Positions 4,317 to 35,768 of a DNA stretch of 35,768 nt are shown here, piece after piece (position 1 is the first letter of the stretch; the number at the start of each line of letters is the position of its first letter). The notes under the pieces are model-generated. The model was not told where the DNA came from. It searched no databases and saw only the letters and a program-made list of their open reading frames with translations. Source of the DNA: Candidatus Kaiserbacteria bacterium (GTDB lineage: Bacteria > Patescibacteriota > Minisyncoccia > Phycocordibacterales > UBA2100); contig JACRFJ010000014.1 in NCBI GenBank assembly GCA_016217935.1, positions 1-35,768 of the forward strand. Direction: 5' to 3'. A program made the translations under genes and the position numbers.

Positions 4317-4341
4317 GTGTGCGGCTTGATAGAATCTCGCT

Positions 4342-6538: not shown

Positions 6539-6581
<43 letters not shown>

Positions 6582-6644
6582 GGTGAGGGGAGTGAAATAG
6601 AACTGAAACCACATGTCTACAAGGAGTCGAAGAGGTTCACCATT

Positions 6645-9153: not shown

Positions 9154-9181
9154 CCTAAGGTAGCGAAATTCCTTGTCTGGT

Positions 9182-11224: not shown

Positions 11225-11258
<34 letters not shown>

Positions 11259-11284
11259 AGGTACGTGAGCTGGGTTCAAACCGT

Positions 11285-11685
11285 TCAGCAACTCACGATG
11301 AGGTTAAACCTCATCGGTTGGGAGATTGAACGGTTTGAACCCCGAGGAAAAACGAACAATTAACGATTTCGTAAATCGTTATTTAGACATCATCACGGCG
11401 GCGATGCATAGCAATATGTATCGAGAAGCTGACTTATATCGGTAAAACCCGACGTGCAGTTTGCACGGGGCAATACCGAGGGAAGTTTGTGAACTTCATT
11501 GAGTGGATTTTGCTGTTTCCCCACTCAATGAAGTTCGCAAATGCCTGTAGAGACTGAATGTTAGCCATCCAGTAATGTAATGGATGAAGTTACAGTCCGA
11601 TCCTGCTAGTAATGGCAGTATGTCAAGGTGTCACCTTGACATTACCCTGGCGACTCAAAATGAGTCGCTCGTGGCTAACCTCATG
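11285..11685 (+). mobile_element. Group I intron without ORF, 23S site 2593
   Basis: Exons GGGTTCAAACCGT and CGTGAGACAGG match E. coli up to U2593 and from 2594, the site used by the chloroplast I-CreI intron. Core: Q CAATACCGAGG (about 11470), R TGTAGAGACTGAATG (11554), S AAGTTACAGTCC (11585). The P6 stem begins GTTTGTGAACTTCA as in the 1951 and 2262 introns but its loop is empty. A 16-bp complementarity spans the 5' splice site (GGGTTCAAACCGTTCA with 11323-11342). Confidence 0.85.
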
Positions 11686-12119
11686 CGTGAGACAGGTTGG
11701 TCTTAATCTGCTGTAGGCGTTGATTCTTGAGGAGATTCGTTTCTAGTACGAGAGGACCGAAATGAACGAACCTCTGGTCTGGGGGCTGTACCACCAGGTG
11801 CACCGCCCCGTAGCTATGTTCGGAATGGATAACCGCTGAAAGCATCTAAGCGGGAAACCAACTCCAAGATAAGGAATCGTTTGAGGGTCGTGGGAGATGA
11901 CCACGTTGATAGGCACCAGGTGGAAGCACAGCAATGTGTTGAGCCGAGGTGTACTAATACCCCGACAGAACTCTCGAAAGGAATTGTGGGAGTCGCGTTA
12001 CGCTTTCTACACATTCTTTGATTAATCTTTGTCGCTCTTCGTAGTCAACGAGAAGAGCTGTTTGAAAATTGTGTGTTGGTGGTTTGGCGATGGGGTGAGG
12101 CGCGAGTACGCGCAGCGCC

Positions 12120-21625: not shown

Positions 21626-21654
21626 TTGACTGAGGAAAGCGACAGGTATACACT
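21626..21654 (+). promoter_or_regulatory. Promoter of the tyrosine leader/tyrA-like unit
   Basis: TTGACT (21626-21631), 17-bp spacer, TACACT (21649-21654). Predicted start about 21661, only a few nt before the leader-peptide ATG. Confidence 0.75.
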
Positions 21655-21660
21655 CTGCAA

Positions 21661-21764
21661 TACATGAAATTTGAAATTGCATATTATTGCGCTTATCGAA
21701 GCCCCCGGGAGTAGGCTCTTGCTACATTTCGTAAAAGAGACCAGGCCCCCGTACGGGGCTTTTT
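21661..21764 (+). promoter_or_regulatory. Tyrosine transcription attenuator
   Basis: A promoter, a Tyr-rich leader ORF and an intrinsic terminator GCCCC-CGTAC-GGGGC-TTTTT (21745-21764) precede a prephenate dehydrogenase gene. A competing antiterminator is possible: CGGG-agta-GGC (21706-21716) with GCCCCCG (21745-21751). A ribosome stalled at the Tyr codons would leave 21706-21716 free; one reaching the stop (21712-21714) would cover it and allow termination. Confidence 0.75.
21664..21714 (+). CDS. Leader peptide with three Tyr codons
   Basis: Sixteen residues, MKFEIAYYCAYRSPRE, with Tyr at 7, 8 and 11 and Phe at 3. It lies within 3 nt of the predicted transcription start, so it would be translated leaderlessly, and it ends inside the putative antiterminator strand. 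The role expected is sensing charged tRNA-Tyr for the tyrA-like gene downstream. Confidence 0.7.
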   Translation: MKFEIAYYCAYRSPRE

Positions 21765-21871
21765 CAGTGCTGGTGGCCTGATCTCGGCGTCTCGAAAGAC
21801 TTCGCAATCAGGTCAACAGATCTTTCATACGCTTGGGAATGACCTGATACCAAGCAACAGGGAGAAGTACG

Positions 21872-22672
21872 ATGCACGATACGACGGCTACCACACCCGC
21901 GATCACATGCCGTTCGATCGGCATCATCGGCGACGGACATTACGGGAGACTGCTCCGTAAGCTCATTCGGCGTTTTGCGCTCGACGTCAATGTACAGGTG
22001 CATGACAATTCGATCGACCCCGATGGACACACGTACGTTAGGCTGCGCGGACTCAGGAAATGTGACGCGGTTATTCTCGCTGTCCCGATGGACATCTTCG
22101 AGCAAGTCGTGAAAAACCTCCTTGCAGTCAACGGGCTGCGCGAAGATATGGTGCTCGTCAACGTGTGCTCGGATCAAGTGAAGTCGGGGGCCACGATCGC
22201 AGCACTTGCGGGGAAGCACCCATACATCTCCGCCCACAGCCCGTGGGGTCCTGATGCGTACCGAGATGTCAACGAAATCGTCTCGCTGCTGCCACCGATC
22301 GTACTGACGAAATGCACGCTTCCGCATCCGAATGACGAGGATCTCTTCTTCTTCATCCAGAACTGCGGATTCAAGATCGAGACTATGATGAGTGCCGAGG
22401 CGCATGATCGGAATCTCGCGGGGCGATGGATGTATTGCGCGCATCTGATCACGCAGATTCTGGGTCGCATGAAGTTGCTCGAAGAAGATTGCAGAGCGGC
22501 GCCGATCTCATATCAAAAGATCGTCGAAGGCGCACGGATGCTTCGCGACGACCGCGCCCTCTTCTTCACCCTCTGGGATCGTGTCCCCGAATGTCATGCG
22601 ACATTCGACGCGTTCATGGCAGCGGCTCACGGGCTCGCTGTCGATCGGCGCGAGCACATTAGCGGAAAGTAA
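21872..22672 (+). CDS. Prephenate/arogenate dehydrogenase-like protein (TyrA family)
   Basis: 266 residues. N-terminal Rossmann domain: SIGIIGDGHYGRLL (GxGxxG), CDAVILAVPMDIFEQVV, VNVCSDQVKSG (the 'SVK' position), and SAHSPWGPDA in place of HPMFGP. C-terminal helical domain: SAEAHDRNLAGRWMYCAHLITQIL, matching the conserved HDR..A..Q.L.H pattern. It would oxidise prephenate (or arogenate) to hydroxyphenylpyruvate (or Tyr). GGGAGAAG 6 nt before ATG 21872 is a good Shine-Dalgarno. Control by a Tyr attenuator agrees with the function. Sequence divergence leaves the exact substrate open. Confidence 0.8.
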   Translation: MHDTTATTPAITCRSIGIIGDGHYGRLLRKLIRRFALDVNVQVHDNSIDPDGHTYVRLRGLRKCDAVILAVPMDIFEQVVKNLLAVNGLREDMVLVNVCSDQVKSGATIAALAGKHPYISAHSPWGPDAYRDVNEIVSLLPPIVLTKCTLPHPNDEDLFFFIQNCGFKIETMMSAEAHDRNLAGRWMYCAHLITQILGRMKLLEEDCRAAPISYQKIVEGARMLRDDRALFFTLWDRVPECHATFDAFMAAAHGLAVDRREHISGK

Positions 22673-22698
22673 CGCCGACATCGTGCATGCTGCAATTG

Positions 22699-22736
22699 AG
22701 CGCCGGCAGGGTCCGAAACCCTCCGGCGCTTCTTTC
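22699..22736 (+). terminator. Terminator of the tyrA-like gene
   Basis: AGCGCCGG (22699-22706) with CCGGCGCT (22723-22730) followed by TCTTTC. Confidence 0.75.
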
Positions 22737-22808
22737 ATAACCAGAAAACACCGCACGGAAGTCGGGCACGTTGTGCAGCGAACGAGTGTGGGGATGAATG
22801 GAATCGCC

Positions 22809-22849
22809 AAATAAACCGCTCCGGAGTGAAAGTCCGGAGTGGTTTATTT
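22809..22849. terminator. Bidirectional terminator hairpin
   Basis: AAATAAACCgCTCCGG pairs with CCGGAGtGGTTTATTT; A/T-rich ends make it usable from both sides. Confidence 0.65.
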
Positions 22850-22887
22850 ATAAAAATATCGGACGGCGGGCACAATGCCGCCGTCCG
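22850..22887 (-). terminator. Terminator of the minus-strand gene at 22908
   Basis: CGGACGGCGG (22860-22869) with CCGCCGTCCG (22878-22887), followed on the minus strand by ATATTTTTAT. Confidence 0.75.
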
Positions 22888-22907
22888 TGACGTAAGTGAT
22901 CAAGAGT

Positions 22908-23480
22908 TCAGGTGCTTCGTGCGGTTTCGGCGAGAGCGCAGCCGAATCTATGGACGTTGTTCGGGAAGTGCTCCCAGCCCTGTTCAGCTGAGAACAGACG
23001 GTGTTCTCGCTTCACTCCTTCAGGAAGTCCGAAGAGGTCCATATGCCAAGCCCCATGCCATCCGCTCTCCAGTCCCGTGATCTGCAGACCGAACGATGCA
23101 ACGATCCGCGGAACGGCTTTCGTTCCCGAAACATATGCCGGATGCATATGAGCGGAATTGACGATGCACAGGGCGATCGGGATCGACAATTGACAGGCTA
23201 GCTCGATGGCGTATCGCTCGGCCTGTGCGACCCTCGTGCTTGGAAGCATGCTGGCTGGAGATGTGCAGAGCGCCAGCCATTTTGCTCCCTCGAGCGCCTG
23301 TCGAATTGCTTCGTGGGGGACAGGATCGATGATGCCGATCTCGCGAGTCAGATCTCTGACCTCGACGTACTCCAGAAGTGCTAGCTCGCTCATCAGCTGC
23401 CGAATCAGGACTGTTTCATGCGCGAGAAATACGACAGGATATTTGGTTTTTGTCGTTATCTCATCCGATCCGTTGAGCAT
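22908..23480 (-). CDS. Hypothetical protein, 190 aa
   Basis: Not recognised. Alternating hydrophobic strands and helices (YPVVFLAHETVLIRQL, KWLALCTSPASMLPSTRVAQAERYAIELACQLSIPIALCIV) suggest an alpha/beta fold, faintly like TIR or nucleoside deoxyribosyltransferase-type folds, but no catalytic motif can be assigned. The start is set by GGAGG 5 nt before the ATG at 23480 rather than the ATG at 23492. It has its own terminator and lies between the tyrA-like gene and trpS on the other strand. Confidence 0.65.
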   Translation of the reverse strand: MLNGSDEITTKTKYPVVFLAHETVLIRQLMSELALLEYVEVRDLTREIGIIDPVPHEAIRQALEGAKWLALCTSPASMLPSTRVAQAERYAIELACQLSIPIALCIVNSAHMHPAYVSGTKAVPRIVASFGLQITGLESGWHGAWHMDLFGLPEGVKREHRLFSAEQGWEHFPNNVHRFGCALAETARST

Positions 23481-23542
23481 GGATTCCTCCATCGGTTTGT
23501 CTTCGATTCGAAACTCACACGCAAGTTTTTAAAAGAGCTCTG

Positions 23543-23660
23543 GTGAGCTTTTTCAAAAGCTCACGCGACAGGTCGCACTTGCGGCCCGCGATATGGGTCC
23601 AAGGTTGGGCGCACATCGCGGGCTACAAACAGAAAGCCCCTCCGAGGAGGGGCTTGTCTT
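23543..23660 (+). ncRNA. Possible structured RNA ending in a terminator upstream of trpS
   Basis: Three hairpins in order: GTGAGCTTTT/AAAAGCTCAC (23543-23564), GCCCGCGAT/ATCGCGGGC (23584-23623), and terminator AAGCCCCTCC-GA-GGAGGGGCTT (23634-23655) followed by TGTCTTTCGTTTTT. It may be a short transcript or a trpS attenuator. No T-box motif and no Trp-rich leader ending before the terminator is visible. The remainder to 23840 holds an AAG/AAA-rich tract (23710-23731) and no gene I can support. Confidence 0.4.
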
Positions 23661-23840
23661 TCGTTTTTGCTTTGGTTAGCGCAACGCCACAGGCACCCTC
23701 CTCGGGAGACTAAAAAAGAAGAAAAAGAAGGCGCTGAAGAAGTTCATTGCCACGAAATATAGCCTGAATCGCATGCGTTGACAAGTACAGCTGGAAATGT
23801 AGTTTTATCCTAGGTCCACTGGCTAACGAAAGGGTTACCC

Positions 23841-24863
23841 ATGAGCGAGATCGTCCTCTCTGGAATTCGCGCGACCGGGAAGCTCCATTTCGGCAACCTC
23901 ATGGGTGCCGTGCAGCATTTCGTGCGGTTTCAAGGACGCGGCGATACGTGTCTGTTCTTCGTCGCGGACTTGCACACACTGACGACGCTTCAGGATCCTG
24001 ATGACATGCGTCGGAATCTCAGGGAAATTGTCAAGGACTATCTAGCTGCGGGTCTCGATCCACAGCAGTCAATCCTGTACGCGCAGTCGAGCGTCCCGGA
24101 GATTCCCGAACTCTCGTTGCTCCTCTCCATGCTGCAGCCGCTCGGCGACCTGCTCCGGATACCGACATTCAAGGAGAAGGTCCGGGGCCAGGACGAAAGC
24201 GCTACCCTCGGACTCGTCACATACCCTGTCTTAATGGCCGCCGACATCCTTGGTCCCAAGGCAACCCTGGTTCCGGTCGGCGAAGACCAGGTCCCGAATG
24301 TCGAACTCGCACGGCGGCTCGCGCATATCTTCAACGCGCGCTTCGGCGAAACCTTCGTCATTCCAAGCATGATGGACGAGATGGTGAAAGTGCCAGGCCT
24401 CGATGGCGCGAAGATGGGCAAGTCCGATGGCAACGCGATCGACATCAACGCCCCGATCTCCGAGATCAGTACGCTCTACAAGAAACGGGGCGTCACAGAT
24501 CCAAAGAAAGTTCGTGCGGGGGATCCCGGAAATCCATATCGGACTGTCGACATCGCCAAAGGGGTGGACGAAGGGTGTCGATCAGTCTACGCAGTCCACG
24601 AGCTCATCACGCCTGGCGAAAAGGAGGGACGGGAGATCGCGGACGAATGTCGCGCCGGTACGATCGGCTGTGCTGATTGCAAGGAGCGACTCGTCGGGAG
24701 TATCGCTGCAATTCTGGGGCCTTTCCAGGAGAAGCGTGCAGCGCTCGCGAACCAGGACGATTACGTGATCGACGTCTTGCATGAGGGTGGAAAGAGGGCT
24801 CGTGTGCTGATCGCGCCGACCGTCGAGGCCGTGAGGGAGAAAATGGGCGTGATCATATACTAG
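23841..24863 (+). CDS. trpS: Tryptophanyl-tRNA synthetase
   Basis: 340 residues, class Ic synthetase charging tRNA-Trp. Signatures: SGIRATGKLHFGN with the HIGH-equivalent HFGN, VADLHTLT, TYPVLMAADIL, the VGEDQVPNVELARRLA helix, and KMSKS-equivalent KMGKS in LDGAKMGKSDGNAI. AAAGGG precedes ATG 23841; a TTGACA lies at 23778-23783 with a poor -10. Being in an island of aromatic-amino-acid genes it could be the sole TrpRS or a second, regulatory or self-protection copy; the window cannot tell. Confidence 0.95.
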   Translation: MSEIVLSGIRATGKLHFGNLMGAVQHFVRFQGRGDTCLFFVADLHTLTTLQDPDDMRRNLREIVKDYLAAGLDPQQSILYAQSSVPEIPELSLLLSMLQPLGDLLRIPTFKEKVRGQDESATLGLVTYPVLMAADILGPKATLVPVGEDQVPNVELARRLAHIFNARFGETFVIPSMMDEMVKVPGLDGAKMGKSDGNAIDINAPISEISTLYKKRGVTDPKKVRAGDPGNPYRTVDIAKGVDEGCRSVYAVHELITPGEKEGREIADECRAGTIGCADCKERLVGSIAAILGPFQEKRAALANQDDYVIDVLHEGGKRARVLIAPTVEAVREKMGVIIY

Positions 24864-24908
24864 GTCAAGTCGCGCGTTCCTGTGCACAGCGTGCTCGAAA
24901 ACAAGAGA

Positions 24909-24933
24909 GGGGTGTCGGACATGCCGACACCCC
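24909..24933. terminator. Terminator between trpS and the convergent gene
   Basis: GGGGTGTCGG-acatg-CCGACACCCC; the minus-strand side is followed by TCTCTTGTTTT, so it mainly serves the gene at 24953-25966. Confidence 0.75.
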
Positions 24934-24952
24934 GTATTGCTACACCAGTAAC

Positions 24953-25966
24953 TTACCGGTACTTGCGCGAATCAAATGCCATAATGCTCTGTCGAGCGGA
25001 CAGGTGCTGCATCACGTCTACCGATCCACCGGTCCCTCCGATTGGTCCACTCCTCACCTCGGGGATCTGGCGAGGCACCACTCTCAAGTGGAGCGCACGG
25101 AACGCATTGAGGAATTTGCCGATCGACTCGACCCGATCCCATAGTTGTTCCGCTCGACTGCCCCGTTGCCAGCGCGTCACGAGCGTCTTGCTCCGCTTGA
25201 CCCACTCCCGCGCACTTTCCATGCTTTCTCGCGTGCGGATGGGGTAGTATTCCATACGCTCCGCGATGTAGTCGAACTGCGCAATCCCCAGGTGATCGCC
25301 GTGAAGGAGCATGTCAACAATGGGAATCCCGGGGCTGAATTCACCGCTCGGTCCCTTGTGTCCGCGTGTCGGATGCGACATCAGAAACCGTCGGAATCCG
25401 CGCGCGTGGTCTTTAAAATGCTCGACATCCTGGCGACCCACCTTCCTGCTGTAGTTGAGGACATTCTCTGCAAAGCCATCTACAGACGCGAGCGCCCGTG
25501 TCGCGGCTTCGTCGTCTGAATTCTCGATCGCAGTCCGCATTGCCGATGCCATCGCCGCAAGCTGCACCTCAATCAGCGCGTGCCGCAGGTAGAACATCCG
25601 CTCCGTTTCCCCGATTGCGCCGCGCGTGAATGCTCGTACGTCGTCGGGCGGGTTCGCCATGACGAGATCTTCGTAGGTGAGGCTCGGGAGCTGTTCATCG
25701 GAAAAAAGCTCGACGAGCCCTTCCAATTTCCTGGGAATTTTACATCCGATGTGCATGAGCCCACGCTCAACCATGAGCACGTCCAGTCGCGCAACTGATG
25801 CGTGTTCAGATCGAACCACGTGAGCTACGAAAGCTTCGCTGAGGCTCTCGAGCAGAATCTCGATGCGCTCATAGACGTGCGTGTCGGCTGGAGGTTCGAG
25901 CGCTTCTGCAAGGCCACCGTTCGCGACAAAGTCGCTGAGCGGGCCGAGAGGCCGTTTCGCGATCAT
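24953..25966 (-). CDS. PrnB/IDO/TDO-superfamily heme protein (putative aromatic oxygenase)
   Basis: 337 residues, mostly helical. The C-terminal block FRALHLRVVPRQI then GGTGGSVDVMQHLSARQS aligns with the IDO proximal-heme helix (SYHLQIV) and its GTGGTD substrate loop, and with PrnB (FRAPHLKL, then GSGG). Upstream, GPSGEFSPGIPIVDMLLHG matches GSAGQSSVFQCFDVLLG of IDO and the GPGAVEMPLFVLEHVLWG block of PrnB. The proximal His is thus predicted in FRALH. Superfamily members oxidise Trp, Tyr or halogenated Trp. Its start has GAGGT 5 nt before ATG 25966. Substrate unknown; fold assignment is from motif comparison by eye. Confidence 0.65.
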   Translation of the reverse strand: MIAKRPLGPLSDFVANGGLAEALEPPADTHVYERIEILLESLSEAFVAHVVRSEHASVARLDVLMVERGLMHIGCKIPRKLEGLVELFSDEQLPSLTYEDLVMANPPDDVRAFTRGAIGETERMFYLRHALIEVQLAAMASAMRTAIENSDDEAATRALASVDGFAENVLNYSRKVGRQDVEHFKDHARGFRRFLMSHPTRGHKGPSGEFSPGIPIVDMLLHGDHLGIAQFDYIAERMEYYPIRTRESMESAREWVKRSKTLVTRWQRGSRAEQLWDRVESIGKFLNAFRALHLRVVPRQIPEVRSGPIGGTGGSVDVMQHLSARQSIMAFDSRKYR

Positions 25967-26040
25967 GGGGTGACCTCGATCAAGTTAAGCAGAGCCAGCG
26001 TTGCTCGGATTGGCAAGGATCAGGTCGCTGGAGCATTGTT

Positions 26041-26077
26041 GCTGTCCGCAGTATGCCGGCTAATGTATCTGAGTCAA
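26041..26077 (-). promoter_or_regulatory. Promoter of the heme-protein gene
   Basis: On the minus strand TTGACT (26077-26072), 16 bp, CATACT (26055-26050), then GCGGACAGC. The string CATACTGC.GACAGC recurs at the promoter of the gene at 26428-26841. The 77-nt 5' UTR holds a possible 18-codon ORF (26036-25980) with one Trp codon. Confidence 0.65.
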
Positions 26078-26080
26078 ATA

Positions 26081-26116
26081 TTCAAAACAAAGGCCCCGAC
26101 CACCAGGGATCGAGGC
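26081..26116 (-). terminator. Terminator of the 60-aa gene
   Basis: Minus strand GCCTCGA...TCGGGGC (26116-26093, one wobble) followed by CTTTGTTTT. Confidence 0.6.
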
Positions 26117-26147
26117 TTATACGCGGCATGCGTTGACGCTGCGTCTG

Positions 26148-26330
26148 CTATTCGAAATGCAGCACGTCCCGCGGATCGTGTCGACGCTCGCGGTCGACAA
26201 TCCGCTGGATCGCCGCCTGCACATCTTCGGGACTGGCATCGTATGGCAGCGTCAGTCCAGGGTGCTCATTCAGGATGCGCTGATCGGCGGCAGTGAGATC
26301 TTTCCAGATCCTCAGTTCCTGTTGGGTCAC
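26148..26330 (-). CDS. Small hypothetical protein, 60 aa
   Basis: MTQQELRIWKDLTAADQRIL and later SPEDVQAAIQRIVDRERRHD: a soluble, helical, charged protein, not recognised. AAGGA lies 7 nt before the GTG at 26330. It has its own promoter with a 16-bp perfect palindrome over the -10, and its own terminator, so it is a monocistronic, probably regulated gene. Confidence 0.55.
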   Translation of the reverse strand: MTQQELRIWKDLTAADQRILNEHPGLTLPYDASPEDVQAAIQRIVDRERRHDPRDVLHFE

Positions 26331-26352
26331 GATTTTGTCCTTCTATTCGAGG

Positions 26353-26393
26353 ATACTGCATGCAGTATGTGTCGGAGTGTGCCCTTGAGTCAA
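26353..26393 (-). promoter_or_regulatory. Promoter with palindromic operator
   Basis: Minus strand TTGACT (26393-26388), 18 bp, CATACT (26369-26364). The perfect palindrome ATACTGCA/TGCAGTAT (26353-26368) overlaps the -10 and start region, a typical repressor-site position. Confidence 0.6.
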
Positions 26394-26427
26394 ATGTTTG
26401 GTAATTCGGGACTATTGCCTGGCAAGG

Positions 26428-26841
26428 TCAGACTTTTTCATGATCGCTGAAATAGCGAGTGTACCTTTCTAGATCTTCTCGCTCATCGCTCAAATAGATG
26501 TGCCTCCCCGTGTCGTCTTTTCTGACAAACAGTAACTGAGAACCATCGATGAGTAACATCCGGCGATAGTCAGTCTGATCCGTACGATGAAATAAATAGT
26601 TCGGGTGTTGAATATGCACACGACTAAATATTCTCTCAAAGTCTTCTGCGCGGCCAAATCCGATCCGAGTAACTTTAACACCCTCATTCATTTTCCTTTC
26701 CAGTAGAGCAAAATATTCTGGAGGGAGCGGACGCTCAATCTCTTCGATCGCTTGCATTGTCATCTGAATCGTAGAATGCGCATCGCGAACAAGACGCATT
26801 GCGGTCTCGAGCACGTCTGATTGTTCGATCTCCGAGGTCAT
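26428..26841 (-). CDS. Hypothetical protein with a PLD-like/TrmB-sensor-like pattern
   Basis: 137 residues. An N-terminal helix (EIEQSDVLETAMRLVRDAHSTI) is followed by LERKMNEGVKVTRIGFG and RMLLIDGSQLLFVRKDD, a strand pattern like the 'gvkVr.i......ll.iDg..l.i' part of phospholipase D-like and TrmB C-terminal domains. No HKD motif is present, so a catalytic PLD is unlikely. GGAGG 6 nt before ATG 26841 supports the start. AT-richer than its neighbours. Function unknown. Confidence 0.55.
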   Translation of the reverse strand: MTSEIEQSDVLETAMRLVRDAHSTIQMTMQAIEEIERPLPPEYFALLERKMNEGVKVTRIGFGRAEDFERIFSRVHIQHPNYLFHRTDQTDYRRMLLIDGSQLLFVRKDDTGRHIYLSDEREDLERYTRYFSDHEKV

Positions 26842-26858
26842 GGTCGTCCTCCATGGTG

Positions 26859-26897
26859 GCTGTCAGCAGTATGTGCACGTTCGCAGATGACGGGCAA
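26859..26897 (-). promoter_or_regulatory. Putative promoter sharing an element with the heme-protein gene
   Basis: Minus strand TTGCCC (26897-26892), 18 bp, CATACT (26873-26868), then GCTGACAGC. Fifteen positions match the element at 26041-26055 with one difference. Confidence 0.5.
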
Positions 26898-26948
26898 GTC
26901 GGTATCTTTGAATGAAATTACGAGCATGTGTCGAGACGATTGCTTTGA

Positions 26949-27449
26949 TCACTGAGAGAATTCAGTCTTAGCGAAACGATGTATATCCTCGGCAATTTGT
27001 GTAACGACATTCTGCAGGTAGTCGGCATCTTTCTGATTATGCGGATCCGCAACGCTCGATAAAAGACGCATTTTTTGTGTGATCGCGGGCGCTTCTTGCC
27101 ACTCGGCTTGCAACTTGTTGAGCGCTTCCTCACCAAGGACGAGTATCACATCAGCACGTTCAGCGTCCTCGCGTGAGATCGGAGTCGATACCTTATGTTC
27201 AGAAATGCTGATTGAGTATGCTTCAAGAATCTTGCGCGTCTGTGCGTAGGTTTCCGGATAGCCTCGCAGGTTTGCATGTTCCGCAGGCGGGACACCCATT
27301 GCGCCTTGTATGCCGCGAGACTCGATACGGTATCTGTCTTGCATGTTTCGATCAATGAGGACTTTGCGAAGCAGCTCTTCGGCCACCACTGAGCGGTAAA
27401 TATTGCCCCAACAGACAATAAGAACATTTTTCATAATTTCATTCATCAT
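26949..27449 (-). CDS. Low-molecular-weight protein phosphatase-like protein
   Basis: About 161-166 residues of the LMW-PTP/arsenate-reductase fold. The P-loop CWGNIYRS fits C-x5-R-S near the N-terminus, and VADPH provides the DP motif with the general-acid Asp near residue 138. It could remove phosphate from protein Tyr or from a small metabolite. The start is uncertain: ATG 27449, or ATG 27434 giving MKNVLIVCWGN; neither has a clear Shine-Dalgarno. Proximity to a dikinase raises the possibility of opposing phosphorylation and dephosphorylation, which is inference. Confidence 0.75.
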   Translation of the reverse strand: MMNEIMKNVLIVCWGNIYRSVVAEELLRKVLIDRNMQDRYRIESRGIQGAMGVPPAEHANLRGYPETYAQTRKILEAYSISISEHKVSTPISREDAERADVILVLGEEALNKLQAEWQEAPAITQKMRLLSSVADPHNQKDADYLQNVVTQIAEDIHRFAKTEFSQ

Positions 27450-27489
27450 ACGTCGTACAAAAGATTTCTGGTATCCCGATTGCAGTATA

Positions 27490-27526
27490 CGAAAAAAGAT
27501 ACGGAGGGCGGCGGAAACCGCCCTCC
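27490..27526 (-). terminator. Terminator of the dikinase gene
   Basis: GGAGGGCGG (27503-27511) with CCGCCCTCC (27518-27526); the minus-strand transcript continues GTATCTTTTTT. Confidence 0.8.
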
Positions 27527-27539
27527 GAAGAACATGCCG

Positions 27540-29978
27540 CTAATCGTCCGAGAGGATCTCGACGATTCCGGCTCGGCCATCAACACGCACGCGCATTCCT
27601 GTCTTGAGGTGTTTGATCGCGTCGCCGAGGTTCACGACTCCGGCGATGCCTTGTTCGCGCGCGCATATCGCGGTGTGCGCCAAGATGCCGCCTACCTTGG
27701 TTACGATGCCGCCGGTCTTGCCGACTGCCTCGATGACCGGCGACCAGGCGGGGTCGGTTTTCTTGGTGACGAGAATCGAACCCTCCTGGATCTGTGCGAT
27801 CACTGCGGCATCGCTGAGATCAACGACTACGATGCAGATACCCTCTGTGCTGTAGCTGGTCACGCCGATGCCTCGCAACGCACGATCTCCGTTTGCGGGC
27901 GGAACACCGATTGCGCGAAGATCGTCCGTGTACAGGATCTGCGGGACGTAGATTTCCGCATTCTGTGCATGCTCGCTTCGAGCAAGGACCGCGACGTCGT
28001 GCATCCGAGCCGCTTCAGCGGGGAGCTGGAATACCTCGATCGGGTCAAGATGGAAGATGAGACCATCCTCCCACCCGAGCATGCGTCCGATCTCGATGGC
28101 GTGCCCGCGAGCCACCTCGTAGCCCTTGAGGTAGTGGAATTTCACTACCTCGCGGAGCATGAGGTACTCTCGCGCGTATAGCACGTCGCTCCACACGGAG
28201 CTCCACGTCTCCCCGAACACGCTCTCGAGACGTGAGTATGCCTCCAGCGCGCGGCGGAAGTTTGCTTTAGTCTCGGGCTCACGAGCGTTTGCGACAAGCG
28301 CCTCGATGAGATCGGAGCGGTTGCGGTATCGAGGCAACGAGATCTCGAGCTCATGCTCGGCGAGGTGACCGAATTCCGCGATGACTGCCTCCACCGACAG
28401 GTCGCCGCGACGTGCGGCGAGCAGCATGTTGCTGAACCGGAGGTTTGGACTTTCCGGATCCCTTACGCCCATGAGGTCGCTCAGGTACGCATCTGCTTCC
28501 TCCTTCCCGAATTTCTCGAGCAGTGCTTTGTGCGCGCGAGCGAACGCAAAGAAGCCGAGCCGTGCGATTTGTACGAACATCGGACACGCGATGGTCCGAA
28601 GCTCGTCGCACATTCTGCGATAGAGCCCGACGTGGGCGTCGACAGAATCCGGCTTTTCGTTCAAGTGCGCATCGATCACGCGTTGCCACTGAGGTACGAA
28701 GTTCAGACGACACTCCGATGCCCGGGTCGCTTCAAGTGCTCTGATGCGTTTGAAGAACGTCGCGTACGCGCGACCATACCGTCTCGCATGCTTCGGGTCG
28801 AAGATTCGAGTGAGAAACTCTTCCGACGGGTTCTGCTCGTAGAGGCCGACTTCCGGATAGTTTGCGAACGTAGCATCTGTCTTGATCTTGCAGAGATAGC
28901 TCTCCACGATCCGGCAGTAATCCTGAAGGGGAATGCCAGCGATTCGGTACGTGAACGCGTCGTGGACAATGCTTGCGCGTGGTTTTCCCGCCACGAGCAA
29001 CTGGAAACCGGCGTTCAACTCATCGCCGATCTCGTACCCCATCGAATTACGACCGGTCTTGATCGCGCCTTCGCCATGAGCGAACAGGTAGCAGAAAAGC
29101 CCATGTGTCATCCGCGTCGGCGTATCACCGAGTATTTCGACGATGTTTTGATCCGAGAGCACGTCCTCGCCGAACTTGGCGCCGAGCGCATTGAGACGCA
29201 CCGTTTCTGCGCGAAGTGCCGCATTGAGATTGCCGACGCGCAGAGCGATATCGTCGAGCGCTGCATCGATCCCCGTGATGGGTCGCGCTTGGTTGATGTA
29301 GAGGTCATGGGTCTTAGTCTCAAACGCCCACTCGATGTCCTCTTCGCCTCCAAACGCCTCCCGTATCTTGAGAGCAGCGAGATAGAGTTCTTGCCTCTCT
29401 CGGTCGGTGAGTTGGAATCCGTCGACGATGTGCGACCGCTTTGTTTCTCCAGTTGCGGGATCGATATAGTAGCGGGTGGACTCCACGTGTGAGTTCACCA
29501 GCTTCTCCGCGTTGCCGCGGACAGCCTCGATGACCATGAGACCTTCGGAGCCGACGGGATCACGCGTGAAGAGCACGCCTGCGCACTTCGCGTCGACCAT
29601 TTCCTGGACGATAAGATCGAGGCTACCGGGGTCGACTCCGCGAGCGGCGCCGTATGCGGCGACGTTCGTGCTAGTAATCGCCTCAGCGCACTCGATGATC
29701 GCCGATTCGAGATTTGCAGTCTTTACGTCGAGTAGGGTTTTGAACTGCCCCGCCCACGAGTGGGCCGCGGAGTCTTCGCCTTTCGCAGAAGAGCGAACGG
29801 CGTAGAGAAGATCGCTGCGCAGGTGTGCGAGATTGTCACGAACGTGGGGCGGAAGACCCCTTGCTTCGAGAATCAGGCGGACGTCTTCCGCGGCGATCAC
29901 GATGAACGGCTTTACGCGCACGAATGCGCTGAGTGCCTGAAGACGTCCTGCTTTGCCGTTGGAACGTTGGGTAGCCAC
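27540..29978 (-). CDS. PEP-synthase/rifampin-phosphotransferase-like dikinase
   Basis: 812 residues. N-terminal ATP-grasp domain (to about 240): GKAGRLQAL, YAVRSSAKGEDSAAHSWAGQ, VQEMVDAKCAGVLFTRDP and YINQARPIT. A long helical middle (about 250-690) has no family I can name. The C-terminal phosphohistidine domain holds ILVTKKTDPAW, IVTKVGGILAHTAICAREQG with the catalytic His, and MRVRVDGRAGIVEIL, and the protein ends there, without the PEP/pyruvate barrel of true PEP synthase. This order is that of rifampin phosphotransferase, which phosphorylates a small molecule via His. GTG 29978 has a perfect AGGAGGTGA 5 nt upstream. A T-box controls it. Confidence 0.8.
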   Translation of the reverse strand: MATQRSNGKAGRLQALSAFVRVKPFIVIAAEDVRLILEARGLPPHVRDNLAHLRSDLLYAVRSSAKGEDSAAHSWAGQFKTLLDVKTANLESAIIECAEAITSTNVAAYGAARGVDPGSLDLIVQEMVDAKCAGVLFTRDPVGSEGLMVIEAVRGNAEKLVNSHVESTRYYIDPATGETKRSHIVDGFQLTDRERQELYLAALKIREAFGGEEDIEWAFETKTHDLYINQARPITGIDAALDDIALRVGNLNAALRAETVRLNALGAKFGEDVLSDQNIVEILGDTPTRMTHGLFCYLFAHGEGAIKTGRNSMGYEIGDELNAGFQLLVAGKPRASIVHDAFTYRIAGIPLQDYCRIVESYLCKIKTDATFANYPEVGLYEQNPSEEFLTRIFDPKHARRYGRAYATFFKRIRALEATRASECRLNFVPQWQRVIDAHLNEKPDSVDAHVGLYRRMCDELRTIACPMFVQIARLGFFAFARAHKALLEKFGKEEADAYLSDLMGVRDPESPNLRFSNMLLAARRGDLSVEAVIAEFGHLAEHELEISLPRYRNRSDLIEALVANAREPETKANFRRALEAYSRLESVFGETWSSVWSDVLYAREYLMLREVVKFHYLKGYEVARGHAIEIGRMLGWEDGLIFHLDPIEVFQLPAEAARMHDVAVLARSEHAQNAEIYVPQILYTDDLRAIGVPPANGDRALRGIGVTSYSTEGICIVVVDLSDAAVIAQIQEGSILVTKKTDPAWSPVIEAVGKTGGIVTKVGGILAHTAICAREQGIAGVVNLGDAIKHLKTGMRVRVDGRAGIVEILSDD

Positions 29979-30262
29979 GGGTCACCTCCTGCGGTGTGTT
30001 GATGAATTTTCAGAGAGCAGAAAGATCTCGGTTTTTTGCTGGTAGGAGCCAACAAAAAACCGCCCGTATTCCACAAGCATATGCTCATGAGATAAGGGCG
30101 ATTTTCAGTCGCGGTACCACCTTAGTTGTTTCTCACCGACTCCGCAAGAGCGACATCGGTTTTCCTGATTACGGAGGAGTTCCGGATCACGACTTGCGCC
30201 GCGATCTCCTCACCGGCCCCAACCCCGCGTTGATGCGGGAACCGGTTCAATGGATTTACCTA
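29979..30262 (-). promoter_or_regulatory. T-box riboswitch 1 (dikinase leader)
   Basis: The minus strand carries AAGGTGGTACCGCGAC (30123-30108), the T-box sequence, then a terminator CGCCC...GGGCG (30100-30061) with a TTTTTT run. The 5' part has a short stem I (ACCGG/CCGGT with inner CCCGC/GCGGG) and a hairpin ATCGCG...CGTGAT also present, with compensating changes, in T-box 2. The UGGU bulge predicts a tRNA with discriminator A. The specifier is not certain: GUUGGG in the stem I loop allows UUG (Leu) or UGG (Trp). A second stem CGGTTTTTTG/CAAAAAACCG (30029-30062) overlaps the U run. Confidence 0.85.
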
Positions 30263-30268
30263 TTTTTG

Positions 30269-30296
30269 ATACTACATGTTGTTTCTCATCTGTCAA
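30269..30296 (-). promoter_or_regulatory. Promoter of T-box 1
   Basis: Minus strand TTGACA (30296-30291), 16 bp, TAGTAT (30274-30269). Confidence 0.75.
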
Positions 30297-30383
30297 TATC
30301 GGAGTTTTTAGGCCTCTGGCATAGTGGGCGCGGTGGCTTTGGCACGAGGCCTAAAGCTGAGAATCCAACGAACGGGTGCGGCT

Positions 30384-31514
30384 ATGCCGACGTCAGATCT
30401 TGATCTGCTTGCTTTGGGCAAACGACTCCACATGGTGGACGACATCCTCGTGCAGATGCTCGCGGCGAGACATAAGCTCGCAGGGGAGGTTTCGCGATAC
30501 AAGCGCAAAAACGGGCTCCCTATCTATCGTCCCGATATCGAACGGAAGCGGATCGAAGAGGCATGCGCCTACGGCGCAAGGCTCGGTCTCACTCCCGAGT
30601 ACGTCAGCTCTATCATGTACGGCGTGATTCGCGAGGCATGCATGGATCAGGTGATCGACCGTGAGCGAAACGACGGTCCGATCCAGCCGCTGACCTACGA
30701 GCAGCAGAAAGCGAATCTGCTCGAGCTCACGTCGTCGATCGCGGGTACCTACGACGCGACCTACGCGATGCCGTATGCGACCCGCGTGCTTCATGATTAC
30801 GAGGACCAGCGTCTTGAGAATCTCATCCTCGAAATGCCACGTGGGCGGCGTGGGCGGTTTCTCGATCTGGGCTGCGGCACAGGGAAAATCGCATTTCGCG
30901 CCGCGTACATGTTCAAGAAGGTCGTCGGTTACGACCTGAGTGCGCCGATGCTTGCGGTGGCGCGCCAGAAACACGCATCGCGCCATGCGAATACCGATGT
31001 GAGCTTCGTAGAAACAGATCTGGACAATGGAATTCCAGAACCCGACGAGAGCGTGTCGTTTGTCGCAATGACGCTCGGCACCGGAAGCGATATCCGCGAG
31101 ATCGAGAATCTGGTCGAGGAGATACAGCGAGTTCTCGAACCCGAGGGGCGTTTCCTGGTATCGTTCTACAATGCGGGTGCACTGCTCTATGAGTGGCAGT
31201 ACGTGCCCTGGCAGTTGCCGCTCGCAGCCTGGATGAACATCGACGAGCACACCTTGGAGGTTCCGCACGCTGGCAAGACCTACCAGGTGTTTGCCCGCCC
31301 CCGTACGATCGACGAGGTGAAGGAGCTGTTCAGCTGGGCGTTGGCGGGTTCACTGGACGTTACGACATACCCCACAATTTTGCCCGTGATTCCAAACGAA
31401 GCATTTGTGGGGCAGCCAAGCGATCAGCTCGCACGGACGCTCGGTGATCTCGAAAAGCAACTCGCGCACGGACATCACGGCGCGTACGCGATCGTCGGTG
31501 GCCACAAGTATTGA
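30384..31514 (+). CDS. Chorismate mutase (AroQ) - SAM methyltransferase fusion
   Basis: 376 residues. Residues about 1-95 are an AroQ-type chorismate mutase: LGKRLHMVDDILVQMLAARHKLAGEVSRYK with the Arg and Lys positions, RPDIERKRIEEA (D..ER), and ending IREACMDQ with the terminal Gln. Residues about 115-376 are a class I methyltransferase: FLDLGCGTGKIAFRAA (motif I), VVGYDLSAPML (acidic ribose-binding loop), FVAMTLGTGS, and VLEPEGRFLVSFYNAG. Such a fusion suggests methylation of a chorismate/prephenate-derived compound. ATG 30384 is chosen; GTG 30324 would run through a 9-bp inverted repeat (30308-30354). It diverges from the T-box-controlled dikinase and ends at a strong terminator. Confidence 0.8.
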   Translation: MPTSDLDLLALGKRLHMVDDILVQMLAARHKLAGEVSRYKRKNGLPIYRPDIERKRIEEACAYGARLGLTPEYVSSIMYGVIREACMDQVIDRERNDGPIQPLTYEQQKANLLELTSSIAGTYDATYAMPYATRVLHDYEDQRLENLILEMPRGRRGRFLDLGCGTGKIAFRAAYMFKKVVGYDLSAPMLAVARQKHASRHANTDVSFVETDLDNGIPEPDESVSFVAMTLGTGSDIREIENLVEEIQRVLEPEGRFLVSFYNAGALLYEWQYVPWQLPLAAWMNIDEHTLEVPHAGKTYQVFARPRTIDEVKELFSWALAGSLDVTTYPTILPVIPNEAFVGQPSDQLARTLGDLEKQLAHGHHGAYAIVGGHKY

Positions 31515-31539
31515 ATGGTCACAGCGAAGATGAATCGAT

Positions 31540-31573
31540 GGTCGGCAACCTCTCAGTTGCCGACCGCTTTTAT
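31540..31573 (+). terminator. Terminator of the chorismate mutase fusion gene
   Basis: GGTCGGCAAC (31540-31549) with GTTGCCGACC (31556-31565), then GCTTTTATTT. Confidence 0.85.
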
Positions 31574-32010
31574 TTAAAATTTCGTGTTGGAGATTCATCT
31601 CCGCAGGTTTTTTCAAAAAGTAGGGGCGCGTCCGCGGACGCGCCCCTTGTTGCCGATACGATCATGCCCATGAGAGCGATCGTCGCTCTCTCTGCTGCGC
31701 GCACACATCGTTGCAAACGTGTCGGGGGAAGTGGGCTCAGCGCCACACCCCATCCGTCGTAGTCAGGACGCATTCGATTCCACGCTCTCCGCACGAGCGA
31801 TTCTTCGTCGATCTTGAGCCGCGTGATTGCGTAGATGAACGCGCACTGAAACGCTTGAAGCTGTTCTGCGTTCATACGGAGCAGAAAAGGCCGACGGATG
31901 CATAGTGCGGAAATCAACAGGACTCGCTTTCTCGATGCATCCTCCTTCGGAAGCGAATCCAATTGGATCGTCAGAGAGTGAGCGAGAGTCGAGAGCTTCG
32001 CGTTCACCAT
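31570..32010 (-). CDS. Hypothetical protein, 146 aa
   Basis: Unrecognised helical protein, for example LSTLAHSLTIQLDSLPKED and NAEQLQAFQCAFIYAITRLKIDEESL. TGAGG lies 6 nt before ATG 32010 and it starts 10 bp after the preceding minus-strand gene, so both should be under T-box 2. The reading frame continues through a 24-bp palindrome that looks like the operon's terminator (31623-31646), so the last 30 or so residues may rarely be made, or the annotated end may reflect a lost upstream stop. Confidence 0.5.
   Translation of the reverse strand: MVNAKLSTLAHSLTIQLDSLPKEDASRKRVLLISALCIRRPFLLRMNAEQLQAFQCAFIYAITRLKIDEESLVRRAWNRMRPDYDGWGVALSPLPPTRLQRCVRAAERATIALMGMIVSATRGASADAPLLFEKTCGDESPTRNFK
31613..31646 (-). 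terminator. Terminator-like palindrome inside the 3' end of a gene
   Basis: GGGGCGCGTCC/GGACGCGCCCC, perfect, followed on the minus strand by TACTTTTTG. Confidence 0.7.
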
Positions 32011-32020
32011 GAAAGCCTCA

Positions 32021-32311
32021 TCATCCGAATGCTGTCGCCGAGTTCCAGGTCGCACCGTCAATGCCGATCGCTTTGCAGACGACGTCGATGCGGCCTTCCG
32101 CAGCTGCGAAGAGCCTCTCGCCGATACGCTGTACGATTGCAGGCATCTCGCCGACCGGGTCAAAGTCGCAGGTCGTGATTTGGACCGAGACGGATGCCCG
32201 GTCCTTTTCGTCAACGGCGATCGGATGCTTCTTCACGTCGTTAATCGCCGCTTCGATGAGCGAAGCAACTTGCAACTGAAGTCCCCTTGGAATCCACGCC
32301 GAGATATGCAT
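32021..32311 (-). CDS. Hypothetical protein under T-box control, 96 aa
   Basis: First gene after T-box 2. Not recognised; ISAWIPRGLQLQVASLIEAA is a helical start, followed by SVSVQITTCDF, a strand. AAGGAGG lies 8 nt before ATG 32311, which also lies just after the T-box terminator, so this start is well supported even though the frame is open further upstream. Since T-boxes normally control amino-acid uptake, synthesis or charging, an amino-acid-related role is inferred. Confidence 0.6.
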   Translation of the reverse strand: MHISAWIPRGLQLQVASLIEAAINDVKKHPIAVDEKDRASVSVQITTCDFDPVGEMPAIVQRIGERLFAAAEGRIDVVCKAIGIDGATWNSATAFG

Positions 32312-32564
32312 CTCGTCTTCCTCCTTGTTGTAACAAAGATCGTTTGGGTCTTGCTCAAACGCAAAACCCGCCCTCGCAGCACAAAAATATTGTGCCGTAA
32401 GGGCGGGTTTCAAATTCCGCGGTGCCACCTTCTTTAGTCTCATCTCGTCCAATTGGACGGATTATCACTGTTACGGGCGAATCCCGGATCGCGACTTGTG
32501 CCGTGATCAGCCTCCCTGGCCCGAACCCGTGCCAATGCACGGAACCAGATCGCAGGCTTTTACT
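32312..32564 (-). promoter_or_regulatory. T-box riboswitch 2
   Basis: Minus strand AAGGTGGCACCGCGGA (32431-32416), followed by terminator AAACCCGCCCT...AGGGCGGGTTT (32410-32363). Short stem I CTGG/CCAG with inner CCGTGC-ATTG-GCACGG and loop strand GUUCGG (UUC Phe or CGG Arg possible). The hairpin ATCACG...CGCGAT corresponds to ATCGCG...CGTGAT of T-box 1. The UGGC bulge predicts a tRNA with discriminator G, unlike T-box 1. Confidence 0.85.
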
Positions 32565-32570
32565 GCGATC

Positions 32571-32598
32571 ACTGTACTCCCGAAAAAAGACACGTCAA
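32571..32598 (-). promoter_or_regulatory. Promoter of T-box 2
   Basis: Minus strand TTGACG (32598-32593), 16 bp, TACAGT (32576-32571). Its -35 is 9 bp from the -35 of a divergent promoter. Confidence 0.65.
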
Positions 32599-32607
32599 AT
32601 CTACCTG

Positions 32608-32635
32608 TTGACAACGGAGCGCGACAGTATATTCT
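32608..32635 (+). promoter_or_regulatory. Promoter of a leaderless micro-ORF
   Basis: TTGACA (32608-32613), 16 bp, TATTCT (32630-32635). Predicted start about 32642, exactly the ATG of the 24-codon ORF. Confidence 0.6.
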
Positions 32636-32641
32636 CAAAAT

Positions 32642-32716
32642 ATGTCAGGCAAGCAGAATGTGAATCTCGTCTTCGGCCTCCTTACCACTTCTGGTGGAGG
32701 TTCTGCTTGTGTCTAG
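32642..32716 (+). CDS. Leaderless micro-ORF, 24 aa
   Basis: The peptide runs MSGKQNVNLVFG then LLTTSGGGSACV. It begins at the predicted transcription start and is followed by GTGTCT/AGACAC (32710-32737) and then a strong terminator, with a Shine-Dalgarno-led gene 75 bp beyond. The layout copies the tyrosine attenuator, so it may be a leader peptide; alternatively it is a small secreted or precursor peptide. No amino acid is clearly over-represented besides Gly/Ser. Confidence 0.4.
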   Translation: MSGKQNVNLVFGLLTTSGGGSACV

Positions 32717-32740
32717 ATAACAAAAAAATAACCAGACACA

Positions 32741-32774
32741 CGAAGGCCCTTCACCCAAGAAGGGCCTTCGTTCT
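32741..32774. terminator. Terminator after the micro-ORF
   Basis: CGAAGGCCCTTC-accca-AGAAGGGCCTTCG then TTCTTT; a 12-bp stem. Confidence 0.75.
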
Positions 32775-32843
32775 TTATGTACCCCAGAGTTTCGTGAATA
32801 TCCGAATCACGGATGAAGGGACAGCAAATATGGAGGCGATGTG

Positions 32844-33170
32844 ATGGGGAAGCATGCGGCGAAACAGAAGGTCAATGGCACTGGCGTCGCGATTCCGCGT
32901 GGATTACCACGCACGATCTGTTCTATTCTCAATGAGCTCGAGAATGTCCAGCATGTGGTGGTGTGCGGAGCTACGCGTAATTACCAGGGTCGGGCAGCTG
33001 CGAACTTTGCGTGGAGACCCGAACCAAAAGGAGCTCTCGCGCTCTGCACCATTCGCGCCAAGGATCCAGACAATGGCGAGCGAGAGATCCGTGTGCGGGC
33101 GCGCAAGCTCGGCGCTGTTGTACGCATCCTCAAGAAGCGACTCTTCGCAGAGGGTGTTCATATCTCCTGA
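32844..33170 (+). CDS. Small basic hypothetical protein, 108 aa
   Basis: Unrecognised. Basic N-terminus (MGKHAAKQKVNGTGVAIPRG), a central ELENVQHVVVCGATRNYQGR, then REIRVRARKLGAVVRILKKR. GGAGG sits 7 nt before ATG 32844. Ends in an intrinsic terminator. Size and charge would suit a nucleic-acid-binding protein, which is only inference. Confidence 0.6.
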   Translation: MGKHAAKQKVNGTGVAIPRGLPRTICSILNELENVQHVVVCGATRNYQGRAAANFAWRPEPKGALALCTIRAKDPDNGEREIRVRARKLGAVVRILKKRLFAEGVHIS

Positions 33171-33181
33171 GTCGACTACTT

Positions 33182-33219
33182 CGCCGCCAAGAATTACATT
33201 CTCGGCGGCGAGTCTTTTC
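33182..33219 (+). terminator. Terminator of the 108-aa gene
   Basis: CGCCGCC (33182-33188) with GGCGGCG (33204-33210), inner GAAT/ATTC, then AGTCTTTTCC. Confidence 0.75.
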
Positions 33220-33291
33220 CTCTCAAGCTACAATGTATGTACATATGTACAAATGTTGTCACGGCCGATCTTGATTGACAGCTGAGGAAGT

Positions 33292-33366
33292 ATGAATACA
33301 CTCGGAGGGACTTGTGATTCAGGATCGGCATTCAAAAAATTGAAAGTCGATCCTGGGTCGCGGTGA
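33292..33366 (+). CDS. Possible micro-ORF, 24 aa
   Basis: MNTLGGTCDSGSAFKK followed by LKVDPGSR; GAGG lies 5 nt upstream. It overlaps a CAGGATCG/TCGATCCTG hairpin. It could be a leader of the basic protein downstream. Weak support. Confidence 0.25.
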   Translation: MNTLGGTCDSGSAFKKLKVDPGSR

Positions 33367-33407
33367 CCTAGTCGAGATCATTCTCGGAAACGCCATGGAG
33401 GACACAG

Positions 33408-33575
33408 ATGGCGAAGAAGACGATCAAGGTTCTTCCCCGTACCAGGTCACGGCATCGGAAGCCAAAGCTTAAGCGGGCGTCGCGTGTCTCTGAACAGCAG
33501 GAGCGGCGGGTTGGCTATCGTCATCAGCGCAACTCGCTCGACAGCTCTGGATTCACACGGTGGGCGCGGACCTGA
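33408..33575 (+). CDS. Small, very basic protein, 55 aa
   Basis: MAKKTIKVLPRTRSRHRKPK then LKRASRVSEQQERR: strongly Arg/Lys-rich, like small ribosomal or nucleic-acid-binding proteins, but not matching bL32-bL36 or bS21 by eye. GGAGG 7 nt before ATG 33408 and a perfect terminator after it support a real gene. It is the last gene before the 16S unit. Confidence 0.6.
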   Translation: MAKKTIKVLPRTRSRHRKPKLKRASRVSEQQERRVGYRHQRNSLDSSGFTRWART

Positions 33576-33603
33576 TCGGATCATCGGTGAGACGTGCCAA
33601 CGA

Positions 33604-34251: not shown

Positions 34252-35768
<1,517 letters not shown>

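Follow-up and report, generated by a model that had tools for sequence, protein, structure and literature searches.

A 35,768-nt stretch of DNA from Candidatus Kaiserbacteria (GenBank assembly GCA_016217935.1), hereafter the window, was found to carry a tryptophan (Trp) T-box RNA, a second tryptophanyl-tRNA synthetase (TrpRS-II), and a set of enzyme genes between 21.6 and 33.6 kb. The window is an entire contig (JACRFJ010000014.1; C45) of a 764 kb genome that is 94% complete. With moderate confidence, we regard this segment as one of two copies in the genome of a sporadically distributed Trp-starvation island that supplies, protects or processes Trp by means of a dedicated TrpRS and tRNA. Its regulatory logic, its recurrence, and the extra synthetase and tRNA are established at the level of sequence. 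Gene content of the segment was assessed against Pfam and NCBIfam profiles, and relatives were sampled among 247 genomes of the order and in a further phylum-wide sample of 380.

A tryptophan T-box subfamily

The switch on which this reading depends lies ahead of a dikinase gene:

30088..30262, minus strand: Trp T-box T1, specifier UGG, bulge UGGU (Rfam match; 140 bits with covariance model R1)
TTGACA-N17-TAGTAT at 30296, minus strand: predicted promoter of T1

T1 begins at the predicted transcription start and comprises a short stem I, stem II, an IIA/B-like pairing, stem III, an antiterminator with the UGGU bulge, and a terminator. The segment CGCCCTTA serves both the antiterminator and the terminator folds, which are hence mutually exclusive. 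A first-pass annotation of the window had proposed a T-box-controlled dikinase, and a gene with PPDK_N and PEP-utilizers domains does lie behind T1. The Rfam scan of the window returned two T-boxes and a Phe leader, every one under the gathering score. T-boxes of this genome scored 28–45 bits (at best 45.4) against a gathering score of 93, which is a curation threshold, not a structural one, and was exceeded in just two of the five matching control genomes.

Model R1 was trained on nine T-boxes (eight from islands plus the second T-box of the window, T2) and then run on the order. In 14 of its 32 consensus pairs, at least one sequence had changed on both sides with pairing preserved. Beyond the training set, R1 strongly matched, among others, the leaders of trpBA-trpS (G031, G075), trpBA (G143), trpB (G109), trpEG (G102) and trpS (G159). 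Since the model was trained only on island T-boxes and T2 yet finds trp-gene leaders, these matches provide independent confirmation of Trp specificity. In sister lineages trpBA, trpEG and trpS are all under this type of T-box, which argues for a response to Trp shortage. The specifier loop was [G/A]U-UGG-G in 22 of 23 aligned matches, T2 being the exception, and the bulge was UGGC or UGGU wherever readable (three were not read by the script); such a bulge suits G73, which the tRNA-Trp genes of island loci carry. In G541, which belongs to another class, the T-box also carries UGG and stands upstream of a Trp dehydrogenase (TrpDH)-aminotransferase pair. Leucine (UUG) was ruled out as the specifier of T1, given the regulation of trp genes in relatives that share this loop and the C/U variation in the bulge. 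T-box matches (E ≤ 1e-3, all under the Rfam cut-off) occurred in 72 of the 247 order genomes.

TrpB was absent from the island genomes and present in the genomes with a T-box-trpB arrangement. This complementarity, on few genomes, suggests that one kind of switch governs Trp synthesis in genomes that have the genes and the island in those that lack them. None of 15 genomes, our own included, yielded a chorismate synthase. The trpEG locus of G102 (L225, contig C7, 2348-4863) is T-box-controlled and has behind it a short stretch similar to the C-terminus of TrpA; this 99% complete genome is also without chorismate synthase, and its trpEG is either a decaying trp operon or one supplied with outside chorismate.

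T2 belongs to the same RNA subfamily and, as first annotated, heads a second T-box operon, here of two small open reading frames (ORFs):

32393..32564, minus strand: T-box T2, specifier UCG (Ser) by homology, bulge UGGC
32021..32311, minus strand: 96-aa ORF, no Pfam match for the frame containing it
31570..32010, minus strand: 146-aa ORF, no Pfam match for the frame containing it

Relative to the subfamily, its specifier loop (UUCGGG) carries a G-to-C change that gives UCG in place of UGG, and T2 was ruled out as a Trp switch. The broader first-pass claim of amino-acid-responsive aromatic regulation is solid for T1 and for the Phe attenuator described below, and plausible for a Tyr leader.

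Other observations concern the surroundings of these RNAs. T-box leaders in G148 adjoin AspRS-like and ThrRS genes (L182, L185). A family of ~253-278 aa lies directly behind Trp T-boxes in L199, L200, L203 and L209 (no Pfam match in the two members scanned), followed in L200 and L209 by a histidine-phosphatase-like gene. Between T1 and the neighbouring methyltransferase fusion gene, positions 30317-30387 form a tRNA-sized element of 71 nt with perfect 7-bp ends (GGCATAG...CTATGCC), then G; drawing it by hand gave no cloverleaf.

The recurring island, its synthetase and its tRNA

The genome carries the island twice, in the window and on contig C35 (5.1 kb; L038), which encodes a Trp T-box, a GCS2-like ligase, an AstE-like deacylase, TrpRS-II, and a second copy of the fusion of a chorismate-mutase fold with an S-adenosylmethionine (SAM) methyltransferase (CM-MT). 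The C35 CM-MT (3465-4588) is broken by an apparent frameshift, either an assembly error or a pseudogene. Across relatives the recurring parts were TrpRS-II, CM-MT, a dikinase or a GCS2-like ligase with an AstE-like deacylase, and a ScyB-like TrpDH with an aminotransferase; their order differed and the set recurred:

G082: zinc ribbon, TrpRS-II, CM-MT, tRNA-Trp, T-box, dikinase
G060: TrpRS-II, CM-MT, T-box, GCS2, AstE-like
G148: TrpRS-II, tRNA-Trp, editing protein, 333-aa-family protein; and T-box, GCS2, AstE-like
G423: CM-MT, tRNA-Trp, TrpRS-II, zinc ribbon, GCS2, AstE-like
G541: TrpRS-II, tRNA, editing protein, tRNA, 333-aa-family protein, T-box, TrpDH, aminotransferase
G241 (small contig): T-box, TrpDH, aminotransferase, with AstE-like
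G023: TrpRS-II twice, tRNA-Trp, T-box, low-molecular-weight (LMW) phosphatase, TrpD-like

The first-pass annotation had asked whether the gene set is conserved together. TrpRS, CM-MT, the Trp T-box and the dikinase (or GCS2/AstE) do recur in other families and in another class; an IDO-like gene of the window (1 of 247 genomes) does not, and its TyrA-like and 194-aa genes were unseen in the island loci examined. The 320-333-aa family (39-54% identity; L182 11118-12089, L088 2654-3655, L189 7914-8915, L184 2-607) follows an aminoacyl-tRNA editing-domain protein where both share a contig, and the one member scanned had no Pfam match.

23841..24863, plus strand: TrpRS-II, second tryptophanyl-tRNA synthetase

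The first-pass call of a TrpRS was confirmed (TIGR00233 at 235.8 bits, cut-off 176.75). The protein retains HxGN, MAAD and GxDQ, with KMxKS present as a KMGKS variant, and in the tree TrpRS-II stood apart from housekeeping TrpRS. Four class-Ic synthetase genes were counted in the genome, namely the housekeeping TrpRS on C5, the TrpRS paralogues in the window and on C35, and a fourth, presumably TyrRS, on C42. TrpRS-II occurred in six of the order genomes, our own counted. The phylum-wide sample added three genomes above the TrpRS threshold, two with island neighbours (G541, G423) and one without (G268, 42% identity).

tRNA-Trp(CCA) genes were found with ARAGORN in the islands of six relatives, with no other tRNA in those loci. 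They lie within ~100 nt of TrpRS-II in G023, G148 and G541, between CM-MT and TrpRS-II in G423, between CM-MT and the T-box in G082, and on the T-box contig in G241. In G148, the genome of which was read whole in stretches, the tRNA set is close to complete and includes a housekeeping tRNA-Trp on C13, apart from the island; the island tRNA-Trp is an extra copy, divergent from the housekeeping one.

This arrangement invites comparison with the TrpRS-A/tRNA-Trp(A73)/ORF1 operons of the candidate phyla radiation (CPR) and DPANN, an extra pair beside the canonical one with a suggested link to Trp availability (PMC5370408). The island shares with them the extra TrpRS-tRNA-Trp pair in CPR; it differs in combining a bacterial-type TrpRS and a G73 tRNA with a T-box and metabolic genes, where TrpRS-A is archaeal-type with A73 and ORF1. 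Identity with the TrpRS-A pair was rejected accordingly.

A naturally separate TrpRS-II/tRNA-Trp pair, tied to Trp-starvation T-boxes, might instead supply Trp-tRNA to tRNA-dependent chemistry or insert a Trp surrogate at UGG; the GCS2-like ligase, the methyltransferases and the editing-domain protein would then act on or around the charged tRNA. The tRNA gene next to or inside the TrpRS-II unit (G023, G148, G423, G541), the recurrence of tRNA-editing-domain proteins, the divergence of the G148 island tRNA, and the documented non-translational use of aminoacyl-tRNA are all consistent with such a role. We nevertheless consider it unlikely: we noticed no transferase of a recognisable type (PEARL, CDPS, FemX) in these loci, no dedicated tRNA was seen in our own genome, and retention of the CCA anticodon and G73 makes cross-talk with the normal Trp system likely.

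Island enzymes

27540..29978, minus strand: Rph/PPS-like dikinase (PPDK_N and PEP-utilizers; ATP-grasp and swivelling His domain, no phosphoenolpyruvate (PEP)/pyruvate barrel)
30393..31514 (alternative start 30324), plus strand: CM-MT (CM_2 and Methyltransf_25)
26949..27449, minus strand: LMW-phosphatase-like protein, with a 35% identical relative behind a Trp T-box in G023
26428..26841, minus strand: orphan 137-aa protein (Pfam scan)

The dikinase has a relative (42% identical) behind the Trp T-box of G082. It shares with Rph, PPS and PigC-RedH the ATP-binding domain, an uncharacterised middle and the swivelling His domain, and like Rph and PigC lacks the C-terminal PEP barrel; it differs in missing every equivalog cut-off by a wide margin (152 against 999 bits for the rifamycin phosphotransferase equivalog NF041857), with RedH/PigC and Rph among the scoring families. 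A single operon running from the T-box through the dikinase, LMW phosphatase and 137-aa protein to the IDO-like gene was ruled out because a terminator-like hairpin follows the dikinase (~27527-27490) and the 60-aa and IDO-like genes have promoter-like sites of their own.

As a domain architecture, the chorismate mutase-methyltransferase fusion first annotated is correct; as a catalyst, the mutase is not upheld. Of the residues that we take to be conserved in AroQ chorismate mutase (R11, R28, K39, R51, E52, Q88), equivalents of R28, K39 and Q88 are kept, and because the classical catalytic residues R11, R51 and E52 are not conserved, the domain is probably not a chorismate mutase. The AlphaFold 2 (AF2) model (confidence score pLDDT 55) showed N-terminal helices and a methyltransferase domain; the Foldseek matches listed were nearly all methyltransferases and are therefore uninformative on mutase activity. 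Full-length CM-MT occurred in five of the order genomes, our own counted. Among GTDB contigs the sole full-length relative outside (L094 1042-2145, 35% identity) was in a Hyphomicrobiales metagenome-assembled genome, outside CPR, with no other island genes within 12 kb.

These enzymes could also belong to a small natural-product cluster making a Trp-derived inhibitor against the host or rivals, a reading we find rather unlikely. TrpRS-II (with its tRNA) would then be a self-resistance copy, as in indolmycin producers, switched on with the rest once the main TrpRS is blocked. Leu or Val stands in all TrpRS-II at the position that we take to be the Trp-pocket Phe of well-studied TrpRS, but several housekeeping TrpRS of these genomes likewise have Leu or Val there. 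TrpDH, methyltransferase and aminotransferase recur, RedH/PigC and Rph are among the families scored by the dikinase, and a DMT transporter lies near one island; salvage, however, accounts for the dehydrogenase and deacylase equally well. To our knowledge, neither an accompanying tRNA gene nor a T-box island has been described for Streptomyces TrpRS1 or Deinococcus TrpRS II. Both are second, inducible TrpRS, the former indolmycin-resistant, and a second-copy TrpRS serving as a resistance or stress enzyme is a known pattern (PMC9437257). Against a natural-product cluster, this T-box also controls the standard trp biosynthesis genes of sister lineages, none of the TrpRS-II examined has a T-box directly ahead of it, and no assembly line or precursor peptide was recognisable.

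Neighbouring genes of the window

Of the remaining features of the segment, the IDO-like, TyrA-like and 194-aa genes are, as far as seen, not part of the island in other genomes:

23634..23747, minus strand: Phe attenuator, leader peptide MNFFSAFFFFFFSLPRRVPVALR and stop at 23747-23676 (Rfam Phe_leader, E = 6e-4)
22908..23492, minus strand: orphan 194-aa protein under the Phe attenuator, no Pfam, NCBIfam or convincing PDB match
21626..21662, plus strand: promoter-like TTGACT-N17-TACACT before the Tyr leader (promoter prediction)
21664..21714, plus strand: putative Tyr leader peptide MKFEIAYYCAYRSPRE and stop (moderate support)
21743..21766, plus strand: terminator hairpin AGGCCCC/GGGGCTT and T-run downstream of the Tyr leader
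21872..22672, plus strand: divergent TyrA-like dehydrogenase, 266 aa (PDH_N, E 8e-6; NCBIfam PRK08507, E 3e-6)
24953..25966, minus strand: IDO-like protein (PF01231, E 3e-5; 23.5 against a cut-off of 26)
26148..26330, minus strand: 60-aa ORF upstream of the IDO-like gene, with its own promoter-like site

The Phe attenuator, overlooked in the first pass, precedes the gene for the 194-aa protein, for which the AF2 model was too poor to use (pLDDT 46). Eight Phe fall within the first 12 codons of the leader (none of 20 simulated sequences gave the like), and the antiterminator pairing CCGAGGAGGG/CCCTCCTCGG and the terminator (23655-23634) belong to three competing stems as in classical attenuators. 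It shares with the pheA and pheST attenuators a Phe-run leader peptide, alternative stems and a terminator; it differs in controlling an unrelated protein. The putative Tyr leader ORF starts ~2 nt past the predicted transcription start, ahead of the terminator hairpin, the 3' arm of which is able to pair with GAAGCCCC inside the ORF. A Tyr leader ahead of the TyrA-like gene is plausible, and the first-pass pairing of the two keeps that leader and a weak PDH_N similarity, which falls below the cut-off (25.9 against a gathering score of 26.5; equivalogs far below).

The IDO-like gene has its own promoter at ~26077, lies outside the T-box transcription unit, and was found only in our own genome among the 247. 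By inspection FRALH...GTGGS is readable, presumably the IDO heme-ligand region (proximal heme His in FRxxH plus the GTGG motif). The PrnB/IDO-like heme protein of the first pass thus retains a weak IDO match, below cut-off, and PrnB-like chemistry is not supported beyond that match. The TyrA-like and 194-aa proteins were not seen in the island loci examined, although no systematic search was made. These three genes may be later neighbours answering to other aromatic amino acids.

In the model first proposed, host chorismate or prephenate would pass through the TyrA-like protein and chorismate mutase to an aromatic metabolite, with a PrnB-like heme enzyme and the dikinase carrying out the last steps. 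TyrA-like and CM-fold proteins are indeed present without chorismate synthase, and G102 keeps its chorismate-requiring, T-box-controlled trpEG also without it. We find the model very unlikely: CM-MT does not conserve the AroQ catalytic positions R11, R51 and E52, no other genome of the 247 has the IDO-like gene, and both that gene and the TyrA-like gene lie outside the conserved island.

Elsewhere in the window, the 23S rRNA (5950-11976) is swollen to 6 kb by insertions, with a group I intron at 9968-10301, ORFs of intron type and homing-endonuclease-like look (8531-9091, 10320-10955), and a GIY-YIG-like ORF within the region (6645-6947). A further rRNA region spans 34252-35768, and the 16S carries a group I intron at 35038-35399. 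Genome size, rRNA introns and missing pathways are in keeping with CPR.

A proposed response to tryptophan starvation

In the reading we favour, a shortage of Trp-tRNA would let the CCA anticodon of uncharged tRNA-Trp pair with the UGG specifier, and its GCCA end with the UGGU or UGGC bulge. The antiterminator would then displace the terminator, allowing transcription of the dikinase (window) or of the GCS2-like/AstE-like pair (C35). The core would be TrpRS-II, in most relatives beside a dedicated tRNA-Trp gene, and the two may sustain Trp charging under Trp scarcity or with an impaired main enzyme. The associated enzymes may recover, interconvert or modify externally obtained Trp or a Trp derivative: the ScyB-like TrpDH (a ScyB-type homologue at E 7e-91) with its aminotransferase could produce Trp from indolepyruvate, the AstE-like deacylase could release Trp from N-acyl-Trp, and the dikinase and GCS2-like ligase may activate or ligate a Trp derivative. 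We infer that the island aids cells short of Trp-tRNA. With the Phe-attenuated 194-aa gene and the probably Tyr-attenuated TyrA-like gene nearby, all three aromatic supplies may be managed here.

Several points weigh against this interpretation. No tRNA-Trp was found in the window or C35 (R2 search, filters off), nor by a tRNA search of our own assembly, at its 94% completeness; a relaxed ARAGORN search gave noise only. A response that saves Trp is hard to reconcile with an IDO-like enzyme that would degrade it. The Tyr leader does not stand out statistically, six short ORFs of the window passing the same Tyr-density test. Several family assignments lie below curated cut-offs, and the enzymology proposed for these proteins is read from sequence. 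Finally, the methyltransferases and the CM-like domain are without an obvious salvage role; they suggest modification over pure salvage, which lends some weight to the natural-product and tRNA-chemistry alternatives.

Compared with known Trp T-boxes, the subfamily is alike in its UGG specifier, its UGGN bulge, in which U or C faces G73, its stem II, IIA/B-like pairing, stem III and antiterminator/terminator, and its control of trpBA, trpEG and trpS; TBDB gives U opposite G73 in 46% of Trp T-boxes (PMC7778990), and the same U/C mixture is seen here. It differs in its short stem I, where the specifier lies next to a small hairpin and the distal part is missing, and in its occurrence in an ultrasmall bacterium, where dikinase, GCS2/AstE-like and TrpDH operons are also controlled. 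A search of the literature returned no T-boxes in CPR, which is no proof that none has been described. As far as tested, a short-stem Trp T-box subfamily has not been described together with TrpRS-II, a tRNA of its own and these enzymes.

T-box regulation appears to be widespread in this ultrasmall order. The subfamily reports which genes are switched on at Trp exhaustion, in cells thought to draw their amino acids from a host. Together with its own tRNA-Trp, the recurring additional TrpRS is a candidate for a natural TrpRS/tRNA pair, and offers a handle on how such bacteria acquire, protect or make chemical use of an amino acid in short supply.

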